Positions 3,502-52,152 of a DNA stretch of 64,000 nucleotides are shown piece by piece. Source of the stretch: Chloroflexota bacterium. GTDB lineage: Bacteria > Chloroflexota > Ktedonobacteria > Ktedonobacterales > JADMIN01. The notes under the pieces were generated by a model that saw only the letters and a list, made by a program, of their open reading frames with translations, did no database searches and was not told the DNA's origin. How positions within the stretch are numbered: position 1 is the first letter of the stretch; every line of letters starts with the position of its first letter. Position numbers and translations under genes: made by a program. The stretch lies in contig JAJPKE010000035.1 in the NCBI GenBank assembly GCA_021323855.1, positions 62,001 to 126,000 of the forward strand. The letters are read 5' to 3'.

Positions 3502-4983
3502 TTACTGCGCGCTCGCCACCTGCGCGTCTATCGCCTCGTTTACGCGGTCGGCCAGCCGGCGTCCGCTATCCAGTTCACAGGCCAGACGCAGAGCCGCCGT
3601 GAGCAGCGCATTTTGTCCACCAGCAGCGAGGGCTGGTGGCAGCATCAGATATTCCTCGATGGCAGCGGCAGCCAGCGTCAGCGGATAGAACTCTTGCGTT
3701 CCGGCTGCGGGGAAATCACGGCTGGCGGCGACACTGCCGATGATGCCAGCCAATGCGCGCACCGGATGCCCCATTTGCAGGTAGCGCCGCGCAACTGCTA
3801 GCGCGCTGGCGGTATCACCCTCGCGCACCTGCTGTTCCAGTGTCCGCAACATGCTGGCGGCAATCAGTCCGCCGACCGGCGCGGAGACGGCAGCGCGTGC
3901 GCCGCGTTCGAGCGCAGCCGCATTGCCAGCGGGGCGCACCGCATTCACAGCGCAGGCAGCCGTATAGAGCAACGGCCAGATTTCCTGGTTCTGTGTCTGC
4001 GTGGTGGCGACATGCACCGAGTGGGCATAGTGTAATACCTGTGCCTGGCGCTTCAGCCCTTCGCTATCGCCCGGAGCAACGCTATTGACCTGTTCCGCCG
4101 CCGCCAGCGCGATACCAGCCGCGACGCCCATCGGTGTTGCGCCGTTACGCAGGGCTTGTAGCGTCGCGTCGCAGGCCGCCTGTGCATCGCCAGCGACCAG
4201 CGCCTGCTGGAACGCCGGTCCGGCAGCCTCCTCTTTAGGTATCGAGAGGCGTGTGCGCAGCCAGCCGAGGCCGTGGCCCTCGGCCTGCGCATAGGCGCGT
4301 GCAGCAGCCTCCACCGGCGTTCCAGGGGCGGCGTCCACCATCAGCGGCGTAAACCAGTAAATGAACGCCGGCAGCCGGTCGCCCCATTCCGCCATATCCA
4401 GCACACGGCTCCCCGCCACCGCAAAGCAGAGCGGCTTGCCACCCTCTGGATAGCGCAGGTCGAGCGCGGCGTAAATCGCCGTCAGCAGGTTGCGATAATC
4501 GGTGCCGGTCGCGTAGTAGCCGAGCAAGATGCGCTGCGCGTTCTGCACGTCGTGCGCTGCCACTGCGTCACGCAGCATGCCCAGCGGACCGTCTTTGTGC
4601 TTCACATCGCGCGGCACCAGCGGCTCTGGCAGCGACGGGTGCGGCTCCGGCAGTCCCTTCTTCAACTGATCTTTCACCGCCATGAAACCCTGCACTAGCG
4701 GCAACGCAGGCGCAAGCTGGCGTCGCTCGTCCGCGCCGGGTTCCGGGCCAATCGGAATCGCGCGCATCCATTCCGCAATGCGCCCGCAGAAGGAGAAGGC
4801 AGCGAGCGCGTAGCCATCGCCACCACCCCAGGCGGCGGGAATCCCCACGCGCGCAGCCAGCTTTGCCGGTGGAACCTTCTGCGACCCCAGCAGGCGCAAC
4901 GTTTCGCGGATGACGCGCGACTCATCGCCTGCGGTAATGCCATCGAGCAGATCGGTGATATCTGCTGTGACGAGTGTTGCCAT
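3502..4983 (-). CDS. Conserved-looking helical protein of unknown function
   Basis: 493-residue protein rich in Ala, Leu and Gln with long amphipathic helices and no signal peptide or membrane segment. It reads as an all-helical repeat-like protein; scattered aromatic and His positions such as QVLHYAHSVHVATT and LLGYYATGTDYRN look conserved in style but I cannot assign a family. The middle part (about 150-230) resembles helical domains sometimes found attached to Rieske-type proteins, but no Rieske Cys/His motif is present here. An AAGGAG box lies 13 bases before the ATG at 4983. The next gene upstream on the same strand ends only 59 bases away, so the two may be cotranscribed. That a gene is here is well supported by length and codon pattern. 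Confidence 0.7.
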   Translation of the reverse strand: MATLVTADITDLLDGITAGDESRVIRETLRLLGSQKVPPAKLAARVGIPAAWGGGDGYALAAFSFCGRIAEWMRAIPIGPEPGADERRQLAPALPLVQGFMAVKDQLKKGLPEPHPSLPEPLVPRDVKHKDGPLGMLRDAVAAHDVQNAQRILLGYYATGTDYRNLLTAIYAALDLRYPEGGKPLCFAVAGSRVLDMAEWGDRLPAFIYWFTPLMVDAAPGTPVEAAARAYAQAEGHGLGWLRTRLSIPKEEAAGPAFQQALVAGDAQAACDATLQALRNGATPMGVAAGIALAAAEQVNSVAPGDSEGLKRQAQVLHYAHSVHVATTQTQNQEIWPLLYTAACAVNAVRPAGNAAALERGARAAVSAPVGGLIAASMLRTLEQQVREGDTASALAVARRYLQMGHPVRALAGIIGSVAASRDFPAAGTQEFYPLTLAAAAIEEYLMLPPALAAGGQNALLTAALRLACELDSGRRLADRVNEAIDAQVASAQ

Positions 4984-5042
4984 AGGACGTGCGTTACTCC
5001 TTGTATAGTATTTCTATGGTATGGATGAATGACGGTTTAACG

Positions 5043-5843
5043 TCAGTTGCCTGCGTGCTGCTCGCCGTCGAGCAGCGCGCGTATCTCGCCCTCGATTGGC
5101 GGGATATCGGCGTATTCTTCGTCCGCGAGCTTGTAGGCGCGCTGGATATATAGCTGAGCCAGCCGCGAGCCGGTGGTGTCCGTGCGCAGCGCCGCGTCTA
5201 TCAACTGGTTGGCGCGATACTTCTCCGGCAGGGTGCGCGCAATCCGCCGCATGGACTGCGTGACTTCATCCAGCAGGCGTTTGTCGTGGCCATCTATGGC
5301 ATAGCGCGCCTGCCCCACCATCCGCGCGAGGTCCGCCAGCCGGTCGCGCTCGGAGAGGACTTCCGCCAGCACATCCTCGACATTGAGATCATCGAGCGGC
5401 GTGTTGTTCGCCGTCTCGGTGGAAGACGAAGACGGCGCGACCTGTGGCCACTCCTGCATATATTCGACGAACATCTGCGCGTAGGACTGGCAGGCTTCGG
5501 CGGCATAGGTCATGCGCTGGCCGTCGTCCGAGATGAAAACGGTGCCGATGTTGCAGAGATCATCGCCACGGCGCTCCGCCAGCAGCCGCAACTGTGCGAG
5601 CGCAGGCGCATCTTCGAGAATCGGTGGAATCGGCACGGCGCTGGTGGCGTCCGGGTCCTGCAATCCCTCCATTGGCAATTGGCCGGAGAGCATTGGCGGC
5701 AGGAACTTGCCTATCGAAAATTGTATGGGCAAGACAACGCAATACGTTGCCAGTACGCGATTGGGATCATTGCCAGCGCGGGCATAAATAATGGCATGGC
5801 CGCGTGGCGCCCGAGGATCACCCAGGTCAAAGCTCAGGAGCAT
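5043..5843 (-). CDS. Unknown protein, possible partner of the downstream gene
   Basis: 266-residue soluble protein that I do not recognise. The N-terminal half (to about residue 125) looks mixed alpha/beta, with strands such as HAIIYARAG and VLATYCVVLPIQF and a central DDLCNIGTVFISDDGQRMTY. The C-terminal half (about 160-260) is helical and charged and contains ARTLPEKYRANQLIDAAL. The ATG at 5843 is chosen because AGGAGGGCAGGT sits directly upstream; an in-frame start nine codons earlier has no ribosome binding site. It precedes the 493-residue unknown gene with a 59-base gap, suggesting an operon. A role cannot be proposed from the sequence. Confidence 0.65.
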   Translation of the reverse strand: MLLSFDLGDPRAPRGHAIIYARAGNDPNRVLATYCVVLPIQFSIGKFLPPMLSGQLPMEGLQDPDATSAVPIPPILEDAPALAQLRLLAERRGDDLCNIGTVFISDDGQRMTYAAEACQSYAQMFVEYMQEWPQVAPSSSSTETANNTPLDDLNVEDVLAEVLSERDRLADLARMVGQARYAIDGHDKRLLDEVTQSMRRIARTLPEKYRANQLIDAALRTDTTGSRLAQLYIQRAYKLADEEYADIPPIEGEIRALLDGEQHAGN

Positions 5844-47763: not shown

Positions 47764-48516
47764 ATGGCTCAGCCTGCAAACGGCGCGCAGCAAGTCATCG
47801 CGGTGATCCTGTGCGCAGGCCAGGGAACGCGCATGGGCGCCGCGCAGAACAAGGTGTTTCTGCCGCTGGCTGGCAAGCCGCTGCTGTTACATACCATCGA
47901 AGCTTTCCAGCGCGCTCGCTCGGTCAATGGCATCGTGCTGGTGGCGCATCCTCGCGAGGTGGACTATTGCCGCGATGAGATTGTGGCGCGCTATCATCTG
48001 GATCACCTGGCAAACGTCCTGGCGGTGGTTGCTGGCGGCGCGACCCGCCACCAATCCGAGGAGTGTGCGCTCTCCTATCTGCGCCCACGCATTGAAGGCG
48101 GCGAGGTGGGGATCGTGCTGTTCCACGACGGCGCGCGCCCATTCGTCACGCCTGATGAAATCGAACGGCTCATCCAGGCGGCGCGTGAGTCTGGTGGCGC
48201 GTTGCTTGGCACACGAGTGGAGACGCATGAGGTGATCGCCAGGCTGGGAGCCGATGGCGCAGTGAGCGATATCTTGCCGTCTGGCGATCTCTGGCGCGCG
48301 CAAACACCGCAGGCGTTCGCGGCGCTCACCCTGCTAGAAGCGTATGACCTGGCGCGCGGCGACGGCTTCGAGGGCACGGACACCGCCTCATCCTACGAAC
48401 GCCTGGGGCATGCCGTGCGGATGGTGGAAGGCAGCCGCGACAACATCAAAGTCACCACGCCAGATGACCTGCTACGCGGCGAGGCTATCTTGCGCCAGCG
48501 ACAGCGCGACCAATAA
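47764..48516 (+). CDS. ispD: 2-C-methyl-D-erythritol 4-phosphate cytidylyltransferase
   Basis: 250-residue IspD, third enzyme of the MEP isoprenoid pathway, forming CDP-methylerythritol. AVILCAGQGTRMG and NKVFLPLAGKPLLLHTIEAF are the nucleotide-binding motifs; HDGARPFVTPDEIE, RAQTPQAF and EGTDTASSYERLGHAVRMVEGSRDNIKVTTP complete the signature. The second Ala of the usual AAGxG is Cys here (ILCAGQG). The ATG at 47764 is preceded by GGGGAGAGGGG from the dispersed repeat; the six codons upstream in frame are encoded by the repeat. ispF is not adjacent, which is unusual. Confidence 0.94.
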   Translation: MAQPANGAQQVIAVILCAGQGTRMGAAQNKVFLPLAGKPLLLHTIEAFQRARSVNGIVLVAHPREVDYCRDEIVARYHLDHLANVLAVVAGGATRHQSEECALSYLRPRIEGGEVGIVLFHDGARPFVTPDEIERLIQAARESGGALLGTRVETHEVIARLGADGAVSDILPSGDLWRAQTPQAFAALTLLEAYDLARGDGFEGTDTASSYERLGHAVRMVEGSRDNIKVTTPDDLLRGEAILRQRQRDQ

Positions 48517-48548
48517 GCCAAACGACGACAACACCCGCTGCTATTTCC

Positions 48549-48578
48549 TTGACTTTTCCTCCCAATAAAACGTATATT
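48549..48578 (+). promoter_or_regulatory. Probable promoter of the speD leader
   Basis: TTGACT (48549-48554), 18-base spacer, TATATT (48573-48578), in a short AT-rich zone. It would start a transcript near 48586, about 365 bases before the SpeD-fusion start codon. Confidence 0.55.
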
Positions 48579-48600
48579 CTTCAGGCTGCGCGCAAATCAA

Positions 48601-48682
48601 TGACGCTGATTGACACTCATTGACACTCATTGACGCGCAGCAGATAACGACAAGATCAACACAAGATCAACATAAGATCAAC
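48601..48682 (+). repeat. Two blocks of short tandem repeats in the speD leader
   Basis: Block one (48601-48640) is four 10-base units: tgacgctgat, tgacactcat twice, and tgacgcgcag. Block two (48650-48682) is three 11-base units: acaagatcaac twice, then ataagatcaac. Both lie just downstream of the probable promoter and thus in the transcribed leader. Confidence 0.9.
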
Positions 48683-48813
48683 AATCGCAGGCACGCTACG
48701 TCGAACCGCCTCCTCGAACCGTCCGCCGGACGCTTCGCGGCTGTTTCCATCCACTTGTCGCAGGGAAGACAAGCCGTTTGGGTAGGGAGTTCGATTGCAG
48801 AGAAAGGGACTCT

Positions 48814-48918
48814 ATGAGTACCGACAGCAGTTCCCGTGCGATACACTATGCGCGGGGCAATCTGGTTGGAACCTATCTCAGTTGGTACATCGCCTGTTTC
48901 CAGAGCGGAAACAGCTAG
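48814..48918 (+). CDS. 34-residue upstream ORF in the speD leader
   Basis: A short ORF with its own ribosome binding site (GAAAGGG, seven bases before the ATG). It ends with TAG at 48916-48918, 31 bases before the SpeD-fusion GTG and in a different frame. The peptide is Ser-rich at the start and ends with GTYLSWYIACFQSGNS. Its stop codon falls next to a hairpin, the layout of an attenuator leader peptide. The reading frame and ribosome binding site are seen; a regulatory role is inferred, by analogy with upstream ORFs that control AdoMet decarboxylase in other organisms. Confidence 0.5.
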   Translation: MSTDSSSRAIHYARGNLVGTYLSWYIACFQSGNS

Positions 48919-48932
48919 CGGGCGAACCCCGC
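48894..48932 (+). promoter_or_regulatory. Two hairpins before the SpeD-fusion start
   Basis: Hairpin one has an eight-base-pair stem (48894-48901 with 48907-48914) and a five-base loop and overlaps the end of the upstream ORF. Hairpin two has a five-base-pair GC stem (48918-48922 with 48928-48932). The AGGAG ribosome binding site follows at 48939-48943. Confidence 0.5.
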
Positions 48933-48949
48933 ATAAGTAGGAGTGTGAC

Positions 48950-50605
48950 GTGTTCGGACCCCACCTGATTATTGACGGCTCTCGTTGTGACACCCGGAAA
49001 CTTGCCGACCGCGTACTCGTCGAGCAAGTGATGAATGATTACCCCGCCGCCATCGGCATGACCAAAATCGGCGGCCCCTATATGTTCGAGTATCAGGCTC
49101 CTGATCCGGCGTACTCTGGCGTCTCCGGCATCGTCGTGATCGCCGAAAGCCATATCGCCATCCATACCTTCCCGGAACTCGACTATTTCACGATGGACAT
49201 CTTCTCGTGCAAGAACTTCGACCACGAGCTGGCCATCGAATACATCAAAAAGGCGTTTGATGTCAAAGAGATGGACCGCATGCTGGTGCAGCGCGGCCTC
49301 TCGTTCCGTGGACCACATCACGGCAGCCTCGGCGCGACGGATGAATTGATCGCCGCCGCCAATGCCCGCCTCGAAGCCGGCATTATCAGCAAAGAAACGG
49401 CTATCCCAGGCGAGGTGTATGGCGCTGGTAAAGACATAGCGGACGAGCGCGACGCAGCCATCGCGCGCATCGAGCAGCGCACGCAGACAGGCGAAACGAC
49501 CGGGGCAAGCGCGAACGGTGCGAATGGCGGCAAGATGCTCTGGCCACAGTATGGTGTGACGCCGGATTACGGCACCTATGGCGCTGCGGCTGGCGAAACC
49601 GCTGATTGTGAGCCATGTGCGCGCGGCGGAGCCACCGTTATGCCGCTTACCCATACAGGCGCCGCGCCGCTAGCCGCTGATGGTCGGGCGCTGCCCGCCA
49701 GTGAGCCTGCACAGGTCAACCCAACGGCTTCGATCAGCGGGCTGCTGGATAAGCTGGGCTACGCTGGTGGGCACGCGCGCAGCCTGGGGCGCGGCGTCGC
49801 CATCTGGGAACGGCTGGCGCGCGATAGCCAGACGACGATTGCGCTGGCGCTCTCTACACCCGTCATTGCGGATGGCCTGCGCGAGATGCTGGTCTACGCC
49901 GCAGAACACCGCTATGTAGATACGGTGGTTGCCAGCGCCGATGACCTCTTTGCCGACCTCTACGAATCGCTGGGCTACGCGCACTTCGCCGGTAGCCAGG
50001 ATGAGATGATAGCCACTGAGGAAGGGCATCAGGCGGCGCTGGCGTTCTTTATGGAATTTCTGAACACCGTCGAGCCAGGAACTTGCACCAGCAGCAATGA
50101 CCTGTGGCGGCTGCTCGGCGCGTATCTGCCTGCGCATGCCCCGCGCAAGGGATTGCTCCAGGCGGCGGCGACCGCTGATGTTGCGCTCTTCACGCCTGAC
50201 CTCAACACTAGCGTCTTTGGCGGCGCATTGTTGACGGCGCGCTCGCGCGGGCTGGCGCTCGATTCTGCCAACGATGTCATCGCGCTGGCGCGTCTGCTCG
50301 GCAGAGCGCCACGGCTGGGCATCATCCGTGCGGGCGCAGGTCTGGCGGATGCGCTGGTCGGGCAAGCGCGCGATGTCGCGGCGGCACTTGGCATCGTAGC
50401 GCCAACACTCTCCGGCAGCGTCTCGCTCAACAGTGCGCGGGCGCTGGCACAGGATGATCGCGGCGAGCATCATGTCGCCATCGCCGCTGGCGCAGACCTC
50501 GTGTTGCCGCTGGCGCTGACGGCGCTGGCGCAGCGTCTCCCCGGTGGACGGCGGCGCACGGCTGGCGAGACGCGCAGCCGTGAGGCAACGCCTGCGCTGG
50601 TATAA
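48950..50605 (+). CDS. speD: S-adenosylmethionine decarboxylase fused to a deoxyhypusine-synthase-like domain
   Basis: 551-residue fusion. Residues 1-130 are a prokaryotic pyruvoyl AdoMet decarboxylase: SGVSGIVVIAESHIAIHTFPE with the self-cleavage site E66-S67 and H72, and MDIFSCKNF with C87. Residues about 130-245 are a low-complexity linker. From about 246 the protein aligns by eye with deoxyhypusine synthase: TIALALSTPVIADGLREMLVY matches the TxxLGxTSNLxSSGxRE region, VDTVVASADDLFADLYE matches VDVLVTTAGGxEEDLIK, and VALFTPDLNTSVFGG matches PVFxPALTDGSLGD. The catalytic-lysine region (GGGxxKHH) reads RAGAGLADAL, with no Lys, and the TAGG NAD-binding loop is also lost. The GTG at 48950 follows AGTAGGAG. 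SpeD makes decarboxylated AdoMet for spermidine synthesis, though some SpeD relatives decarboxylate arginine or ornithine. No spermidine synthase is nearby. Confidence 0.85.
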   Translation: MFGPHLIIDGSRCDTRKLADRVLVEQVMNDYPAAIGMTKIGGPYMFEYQAPDPAYSGVSGIVVIAESHIAIHTFPELDYFTMDIFSCKNFDHELAIEYIKKAFDVKEMDRMLVQRGLSFRGPHHGSLGATDELIAAANARLEAGIISKETAIPGEVYGAGKDIADERDAAIARIEQRTQTGETTGASANGANGGKMLWPQYGVTPDYGTYGAAAGETADCEPCARGGATVMPLTHTGAAPLAADGRALPASEPAQVNPTASISGLLDKLGYAGGHARSLGRGVAIWERLARDSQTTIALALSTPVIADGLREMLVYAAEHRYVDTVVASADDLFADLYESLGYAHFAGSQDEMIATEEGHQAALAFFMEFLNTVEPGTCTSSNDLWRLLGAYLPAHAPRKGLLQAAATADVALFTPDLNTSVFGGALLTARSRGLALDSANDVIALARLLGRAPRLGIIRAGAGLADALVGQARDVAAALGIVAPTLSGSVSLNSARALAQDDRGEHHVAIAAGADLVLPLALTALAQRLPGGRRRTAGETRSREATPALV

Positions 50606-50631
50606 CCGTCCGTTGGTATCGCGTATACGAC

Positions 50632-50666
50632 GAGCCGCTTTCTCAATTCTGTCGAGAAAGCGGCTC
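50632..50666. terminator. Hairpin between convergent genes
   Basis: Perfect 13-base-pair stem (50632-50644 with 50654-50666), nine-base loop, located 27 bases after the speD-fusion stop and 16 before the stop of the convergent propeller gene. No clear U-tract on either strand; probably a bidirectional transcript end. Confidence 0.6.
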
Positions 50667-50682
50667 ATACCGTCTGGCTCAA

Positions 50683-52152
50683 TTATGCGGCAGAAGAAAC
50701 AATGCCGATGGCCACAATCTGCGTGTAGTATTGCTGCCAGTAGCAGTGCCGTGGCGCGCCGTCGCTTGCCTCATCTCCTGGTAGGGCCGTGTTCGTCGGA
50801 TTGTCGCACGAGGTCACCTGCCAGAGTGCTTTGCCGTCAGATAGACGCACCGCTGTCAGCGACGAGGGGTTGCCCAATGGGGTGAAGCCTCCCTGAACAA
50901 ACAGCGTATCCTGGTCCGCCACCAAGCGAATGACCGGCTGTGACAATTCCAATGTTCTGAGTAGCTGGCCATCCGCAAGCCGTATGCTGAGCAGCGAAGG
51001 TATTCCAGTATATTTATCGGATTGATTGGTCACATACACTACGCCATTCACCTGCGTCATGGCAGTGATGAATTGGAGCGGCGCATGCCAGAGAAGATTA
51101 CCGTTTGCTGAAAAAGCATCCAGTGTGATTGGTAACGCAGGGTAAACGGGACCGCATCCATTCGTCGGGATGATGACCATACCGCCAGCGGCCAGCATGG
51201 GAACGGATTCCTGATCGCATTGCAGCTTGTGCGTCCAGAGCAGCGTCCCATCGCTCGCTCGCAATGCTTCGAGCGAAACGCCCGTGAGGTTACTGCTATA
51301 GGCTGGCTGCGGATCGGTGGCTGTTTCCGCATAGAGAATACCGTTGCCACTCACCAGTTGCGCCACCGCCGTTGAGCGCGGCACGGCACGACACCAGATC
51401 GGTTGTCCGGTGCGCGCCTGTAGCGAACAGATGCGCCATTGTGTCTGTCCGCTGGCATCAGGGAAATTGGCTGCAAGAGAGATATAGACAACCCCATGCT
51501 CCAGCGCCGTCATCTGTTCGAGCGCAGGAGTGGCGGGCGAAAATATGGCAAAGCCGACATCATTTGCAGGATTGGTGGTCATTTCCCACACCTGGCGCCC
51601 ATCGCTGGCGGCAAACGCAAAGAGTTGGGTCGCAGTGCGCACAAGAAACAAGCCGTCATCGCGGTCGAACTGCACTGCACCCAGGGTTGACCCTGTTGAG
51701 GGTGTCGGAAACAACCGGCACCAGTTTACATTACCGCCCGTCTCCTGCGCGGCGCAGATGCCAGCCCTCCCAATGAGATAAAGCAGATTGCCACTCTGTT
51801 CAATATCGTTCCAACCGTTGCCGGACGGCAAGTCGTTTGGATGGCTATTGATAATGAAATGCCGCCCCAGCGCGCCATCGGTGAGGCGCAAACCACAAAC
51901 GACCGGAGATTTGCGCTGGAAGCCGCGATATCCTCTGCCCGGCTGGATGACCACCATCAACTGCGGCGTGTTTGGTGCAAGCTCGACGCCCGGACTGTCT
52001 TGCTCGCAGACCAGCGGACTGGCGCTGGCAATGGAGAGATCGTTCAGGAAATTGTGGATGGCGAAGCCCCAGATGACACAAATCACCAGGCCCATGCTCA
52101 GCCCTATGAAGAGGGTGCGCCTGCTCTGCCCTTCTCGTGCCGTAGCTGCCAT
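50683..52152 (-). CDS. Membrane-anchored PQQ-like beta-propeller protein
   Basis: 489-residue protein with one N-terminal membrane helix (about 14-32, LFIGLSMGLVICVIWGFAI) and a large exported domain built from WD/PQQ-like blades, seen as repeated strands ending in DGxxLW/xxW: DGRQVWEMT, TGQPIWCRAVP, DGTLLWTHKL, NGNLLWHAPL, DGQLLRTLEL, DGKALWQVT. This is the outer-membrane-BamB-like / PQQ_2 repeat pattern, though no quinone site can be seen. Conserved Cys pairs may form disulfides outside. It probably binds a partner on the cell surface. It lies downstream of a small membrane protein (26-base gap). Start at 52152, ATG. Confidence 0.83.
   Translation of the reverse strand: MAATAREGQSRRTLFIGLSMGLVICVIWGFAIHNFLNDLSIASASPLVCEQDSPGVELAPNTPQLMVVIQPGRGYRGFQRKSPVVCGLRLTDGALGRHFIINSHPNDLPSGNGWNDIEQSGNLLYLIGRAGICAAQETGGNVNWCRLFPTPSTGSTLGAVQFDRDDGLFLVRTATQLFAFAASDGRQVWEMTTNPANDVGFAIFSPATPALEQMTALEHGVVYISLAANFPDASGQTQWRICSLQARTGQPIWCRAVPRSTAVAQLVSGNGILYAETATDPQPAYSSNLTGVSLEALRASDGTLLWTHKLQCDQESVPMLAAGGMVIIPTNGCGPVYPALPITLDAFSANGNLLWHAPLQFITAMTQVNGVVYVTNQSDKYTGIPSLLSIRLADGQLLRTLELSQPVIRLVADQDTLFVQGGFTPLGNPSSLTAVRLSDGKALWQVTSCDNPTNTALPGDEASDGAPRHCYWQQYYTQIVAIGIVSSAA

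Follow-up and report, generated by a model that had tools for sequence, protein, structure and literature searches.

The window analysed here, a stretch of 64,000 nucleotides, contains a gene in which a SpeD-type pyruvoyl decarboxylase is joined to a domain related to deoxyhypusine synthase (DHS). From the sequences, the predicted structures and the analogy with known systems, we favor, with a probability of about one half, the reading that the SpeD domain decarboxylates arginine and that the fused, catalytically dead DHS-like domain would serve the decarboxylase as an assembly scaffold with no catalysis of its own.

Architecture and distribution of the fusion gene

The features of the gene are shown in Table 1. 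The Pfam family PF02675 (AdoMet_dc) matched residues 5-116 at 97.4 bits, and PF01916 (DS) matched residues 265-476 of the same 551-residue frame at 81.5 bits, the cut-off being 27. The initial annotation had described the gene as a SpeD-DHS fusion, and the presence of both matches on one frame in 15 genomes confirms this description. The fusion is a real gene. That is, a chance open reading frame or a chimeric assembly is ruled out by its occurrence in 15 genomes, one of which is a single contig, and internal stops are absent from all 15 frames.

Table 1. Features of the fusion gene in the window.
Feature	Position	Strand	Basis
Fusion gene, 551 aa, GTG start	48950-50605	+	ORF; identical architecture in 15 Ktedonobacterales genomes
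Shine-Dalgarno-like AGGAG, 6 bases 5' of the GTG start	48939-48943	+	Read from sequence
SpeD domain, aa 1-118, class 1b pyruvoyl decarboxylase fold; probably SpeDA-like arginine decarboxylase	48950-49303	+	Profile, model, tree
E66-S67, predicted self-cleavage site	49145-49150	+	S67 aligned to T. maritima S63
Short extension 3' of SpeD, FRGPHHG..GATDELIAAA.AR	49304-49375	+	Strongly conserved in fusions
Conserved linker motif GKMLWPQYGVTPDYG	49529-49573	+	Within an otherwise variable, low-pLDDT linker
Pseudo-DHS/SpeY domain, aa 257-535, catalytic residues lost	49718-50554	+	PF01916, Foldseek, residue table, lysine count

In 14 fusions, the residues G121, P122, H123, H124, G125, G128, L133, A136 and R140 of the extension behind SpeD were invariant, and so were M196, W198, P199, Y201, G202, P205, D206 and G208 of the linker motif. 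Most of the linker had low pLDDT in the AlphaFold model. No polyamine genes were found among the neighbors of the fusion gene; these are DprA-, YihY- and QueF-like genes (named by sequence inspection), which reflect general synteny in close relatives only. An Rfam scan of 48300-51000 gave no riboswitch or leader RNA match at E 0.1.

The search for other SpeD-DHS fusions found the full architecture in 15 of the 47 genomes of the order Ktedonobacterales, namely in 8 of 11 genomes of the window's own family (f1), 6 of 6 of family f3, the single genome of f4 and none of the 29 of f2. Of the three f1 genomes without the full fusion, G001 (58% complete) shows the start of a SpeD where a contig ends, and G009 has a fragment of the C-terminal domain; in G006, neither a SpeD start nor a C-domain fragment of the fusion was found. 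The fusion genomes gave no second SpeD match, and nearly all f2 genomes possess a stand-alone SpeD; the fusion replaces the stand-alone SpeD in the three families f1, f3 and f4. A scan of 84,980 species with fusion-specific peptides, which would miss diverged fusions, gave mostly records of Ktedonobacterales or Chloroflexi metagenome-assembled genomes (MAGs), two being labelled Proteobacteria. When SpeD was searched for in 400 Chloroflexota genomes, the long frames among the matches listed were the fusions and two BpsA-SpeD proteins; fusions that are rarer may have escaped this listing. The 507-residue SpeD frames of G230 and G289, considered as further SpeD-DHS fusions, are in fact BpsA-SpeD. 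Such 507-residue proteins, which consist of a branched-chain polyamine synthase and a C-terminal SpeD, are encoded in two Chloroflexota genomes at L119:3025-4548 (+) and L118:3983-5506 (-), and the profile scan of the L119 protein gave 228 bits for BpsA_C and 109 bits for the C-terminal SpeD. The literature searched contained no description of a SpeD-DHS fusion.

The SpeD domain and its probable substrate

The AlphaFold model of the SpeD half reached a pLDDT of about 95 over residues 1-110 with 30 alignment rows, compared to about 30-50 with 14 rows. Its best Foldseek match was the AdoMet decarboxylase (AdoMetDC) of Thermotoga maritima (1vr7/1tlu; E about 1e-9, TMt 0.84). The residues S67, H72 and C87 correspond to S63, H68 and C83 of that enzyme and were invariant in 30 of 30 SpeD rows; the E66-S67 site, H72 and C87 are thus all present, as had been noted initially. 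By its domain match, predicted fold and Ser, His and Cys residues, the N-terminal half is assigned to the class 1b SpeD-type pyruvoyl decarboxylases. As the conserved residues suggest, the domain would cleave itself between E66 and S67, and S67 would become the pyruvoyl group.

According to PMC10407285, SpeD homologs in genomes without SpeE and without PLP-dependent arginine or ornithine decarboxylases (ADC/ODC) are decarboxylases of arginine (SpeDA) or ornithine (SpeDC). The same paper states that speY and agmatinase genes are found clustered with SpeDA genes, that SpeDAs differ little from AdoMetDC, and that a proline (the 'gamma' Pro) kept in true AdoMetDC varies among SpeDAs. In the window's genome, canonical SpeE was not found, the weak matches being MFS_SpdSyn and a short, 209-residue methyltransferase-like protein, and the PLP-dependent families PF02784 and PF01276 were without match; since this genome is a MAG, 89% complete, a gene for SpeE or a PLP decarboxylase could have been missed in the assembly. 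Canonical SpeE was not found in the other fusion genomes either. The window's genome does carry an agmatinase (TIGR01230, 257 bits, above cut-off), an arginase and, at L001, an intact SpeY, a DHS-like homospermidine synthase (PRK00770, 489 bits), with the complete set of catalytic motifs. Agmatinase and SpeY together with no PLP ADC/ODC is the combination that PMC10407285 describes for genomes with SpeDA.

We also constructed a tree of 79 SpeD domains, including the 15 fusions and two solved AdoMetDCs. A branch with an SH-aLRT value of 99 had on one side the 15 fusions and 10 of 10 SpeDs linked to SpeB, SpeY or DHS (L131_9, which lies between SpeE and agmatinase, was counted as agmatinase-linked), and on the opposite side 31 of 32 SpeE-linked SpeDs and the two solved enzymes. 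The sole SpeE-linked SpeD on the fusion side, L154_8, carries the SpeDC residues, as does L169_18. In f2, the operon speY-speD-speB is explicit at L077. Two kinds of SpeD occur in one operon of G064 at L131:2521-5136 (-), a T. maritima-like one by SpeE and a fusion-like one by agmatinase. The SpeD homologs at L154:3345-3767 (-), which belongs to a SpeD-SpeD-SpeE cluster, and at L169:3945-4340 (-) both possess the Gln, Thr, Phe and Tyr that are diagnostic of SpeDC.

We consider the SpeD domain of the fusion to be probably a SpeDA-like arginine decarboxylase, because neither a canonical SpeE nor a PLP ADC/ODC was found, because agmatinase and SpeY are present, and because the domain groups with SpeB- and SpeY-linked homologs. 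That is, it would decarboxylate L-arginine to agmatine, from which the agmatinase would form putrescine and the separate, intact SpeY homospermidine; the genes for these steps are present, and the flux through them is proposed. The initial annotation had named the domain an AdoMet decarboxylase and had added that it could have changed to arginine or ornithine. Of these proposals, arginine is the one now favored, and ornithine is not supported, as the four SpeDC-diagnostic residues are replaced by V, E, T and T (aligned by eye). The name AdoMet decarboxylase is not supported either, since a canonical spermidine synthase was not found in the genome. It is nevertheless true that the domain scores above the cut-off of TIGR03330 for AdoMetDC (85.6 vs 75.65), that its predicted fold matches the T. 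maritima enzyme, and that it retains the processing residues and P75, which appears to be the proline conserved in AdoMetDC (position inferred) and which varies in three related SpeDs of the SpeB/DHS side. However, with canonical SpeE not found in any of the fusion genomes, with the tree setting the fusion SpeDs apart from the SpeE-linked ones, and with HTFPE/FSCK in place of HTWPE/FTCG, it is improbable that the domain is a true AdoMetDC and that the fusion makes decarboxylated AdoMet.

The proposed arginine decarboxylase shares with the SpeDAs of PMC10407285 the class 1b fold, the processing residues and a genome with agmatinase and SpeY in which SpeE and PLP ADC/ODC were not found. In the available part of that paper, SpeDAs are described as single-domain proteins and none is reported as fused to DHS or SpeY, whereas the protein studied here is a fusion and is known from its sequence.

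Fold and residues of the DHS-like domain

The DHS-like half was modelled over residues 262-535 (AlphaFold pLDDT about 90, core residues 280-490), and its best Foldseek match was the DHS of Pyrococcus horikoshii (7cmc; E 6.6e-13, TM 0.70 of target). Thus, the profile search with PF01916 and the structure comparison both bear out the DHS-like C-terminus that had been read from the sequence. The residues were compared in human DHS numbering (N106, S109, K287, H288, D313, D316, E323, W327 and K329). The catalytic, imine-forming lysine of human DHS is K329 in SWGK (PMC7226451), and a PDB entry of K329A DHS among the structure matches agrees with this; the lysine of GGGxxKHH is K287. The earlier claim that the catalytic lysine is lost holds in that the active site lacks lysine, but the lysine it had pointed to, that of GGGxxKHH, is not the catalytic one. 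Its readings of RAGAGLADAL at the GGGxxK position and of ASADD at the NAD loop were both confirmed, and the STGAN loop is lost.

In four aligned fusions, T131, G133, D238 and K287 were replaced by S, A, T/A/S and D/A, respectively, the K329 position was Q, S, H or a gap, and E323 and W327 were also gone. By comparison, T, G, D, K, E, W and K are all kept at these positions in seven DHS/SpeY enzymes. D313, D316, D243 and H288 were not counted as evidence because they vary among the bacterial enzymes as well. The stretch from D313 to E323 is a gap in the four fusions and the region through K329 is deleted or unalignable, and the alignment there is uncertain; two findings are independent of it, namely that the WGK motif occurs in 0 of 15 fusions and that the window's domain possesses only two lysines (268 and 400), neither at an active-site position. 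A displaced catalytic lysine was also considered and is ruled out, as neither of these two lysines is shared at the active-site place.

Taken comprehensively, the alignment and the model show that the fused domain keeps the predicted DHS fold, while its residues for catalysis, for the NAD loop and for polyamine binding are lost. Judged by its residues, it is a pseudoenzyme, as the initial annotation had offered as one possibility, and the loss is larger than claimed there, since K287, K329, E323 and W327 are all gone in the aligned representatives. The other possibility raised, a polyamine synthase of a new kind, is unlikely, since the domain lacks the catalytic block and has no lysine in its place.

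The dN/dS values of ten pairs were 0.09-0.41 for the C-terminal domain and 0.01-0.09 for SpeD; in several pairs, synonymous changes approach saturation, and only the contrast between the domains is used. In f3, erosion of the DHS-like domain has gone much further (matches of only 30-41 bits), but its N-terminal NPTAS motif and C-terminal helix LALPLL.TGL.QR are conserved even there. By these sequence comparisons, the C-terminal domain is under relaxed purifying selection relative to SpeD, and the selection appears to act on a fold.

Probable origin of the fusion and proposed role of the fused domain

All 15 fused C-terminal domains had their highest scores with the DHSs from L160, L161 and L164. 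These lie downstream of an unfused SpeDA-type speD, in the order speD-DHS, in other Chloroflexota families, and in L160 and L164 the agmatinase gene follows. The fusion SpeDs are nearest to a group that includes the speDs of these three loci (SH-aLRT 86). Because the C-terminal domains are closest to speD-linked DHSs and the SpeDs nearest to those speDs, it is most likely, as far as these sequences indicate, that a speD-DHS pair became a single gene in the common ancestor of f1, f3 and f4 and that its DHS half then lost catalysis. That is, the first two genes of a speD-speY operon would have become one, and homospermidine synthesis could have rested on the separate PRK00770-type SpeY while the fused half lost catalysis. 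Long branches dominate the DHS tree, which was left unused for rooting. A fusion with the order's own PRK00770-type SpeY is ruled out, since 15 of 15 C-terminal domains score better against the PRK00805-like DHSs beside speD. The unfused, speD-adjacent DHSs at L160:2873-4078 (-) and L161:4157-5185 (+) read SWKK and SWRK, compared to SWGK elsewhere, and keep the catalytic lysine. In G058, a 117-residue SpeD (5195-5548) and a DHS (4173-5192) lie two bases apart and unfused at L071:4173-5548 (-), and this DHS keeps GGGVPK/SWGK.

We favor a scaffold as the role of the fused domain because the known NAD and polyamine residues are gone and the fold still seems to be under selection. The stronger erosion in f3 fits decay as well as scaffolding. 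The C-terminal domain might indeed be what is left of the operon partner as it decays, contributing little or nothing except solubility, and its dN/dS, several times the SpeD value, and the low f3 scores agree with this; but open frames persist in 15 genomes of three families, dN/dS stays at or below about 0.41 in 10 of 10 pairs, and the two motifs kept even in f3 also speak against it, so that we regard this explanation as unlikely. In another explanation, which we think rather unlikely, the dead SpeY domain would be a prozyme in cis, hetero-oligomerising with the intact homospermidine synthase by insertion or tethering, so as to hold the first enzyme to the last or to activate SpeY allosterically; a single chain would then couple the first and last homospermidine steps and set the flux between them. 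Each active site of the DHS tetramer is shared between two subunits (PMC7226451), a dead paralog activates DHS about 3000-fold in trypanosomes (PMC3663545), the predicted fold of the dead domain is maintained, and an intact SpeY occurs in 12 of 15 fusion genomes, the other three being MAGs 79-89% complete. However, this co-occurrence is uninformative because nearly the whole order has SpeY, the fused domain (PRK00805-like) and the intact SpeY (PRK00770-like) belong to different DHS lineages, and the intact SpeY, with its complete motif set, is not visibly impaired. The initial annotation had also suggested that the domain senses polyamine or NAD and regulates the decarboxylase in cis. The fold of the pathway's end on the enzyme of its start would be a natural design for feedback, and the model and Foldseek indicate that this fold is kept. 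With D238, STGAN, K287, E323, W327 and K329 lost, the domain has neither the known NAD site nor the known polyamine site, and sensing through the old site is weakened; we consider a sensor of polyamine or nucleotide very unlikely, though sensing by a new binding mode is conceivable.

The proposed scaffold can be compared with known systems. From SpeY and DHS (PF01916), to which it is tied by sequence match, predicted fold and descent from a speD-linked DHS, the domain differs by the loss of K329, W327, E323, K287, D238 and the NAD loop. According to PMC10407285, Victivallis vadensis also has an N-terminal SpeD, active there, joined to a dead polyamine-enzyme domain, but that dead part is a SpeD homolog and not a DHS/SpeY homolog. 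Human spermine synthase, which needs its dead SpeD-like domain for dimerisation (PMC12803844), likewise joins SpeD and synthase folds with one part dead and kept for structure; it is the mirror image, with the SpeD dead and the aminopropyltransferase active. The trypanosome DHS/DHSp pair (PMC3663545) also retains a catalytically dead DHS homolog in the polyamine pathway, but DHSp is a separate subunit that acts on DHS and has no decarboxylase fused to it.

In conclusion, in one branch of uncultured Ktedonobacterales, a decarboxylase that probably starts the polyamine pathway is joined permanently to a disabled enzyme from the pathway's end, and this enzyme now probably has a structural or regulatory function. 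The surviving forms, that is, the unfused operons, the f4 fusion with a recognizable DHS domain and the eroded f3 forms, record how two genes of an operon became one and how one of the encoded enzymes gave up catalysis. The short genes offer a bacterial system in which the contribution of a dead polyamine enzyme to a live one can be studied, and the Ktedonobacterales genes annotated as AdoMet decarboxylase may often not encode AdoMet decarboxylases.
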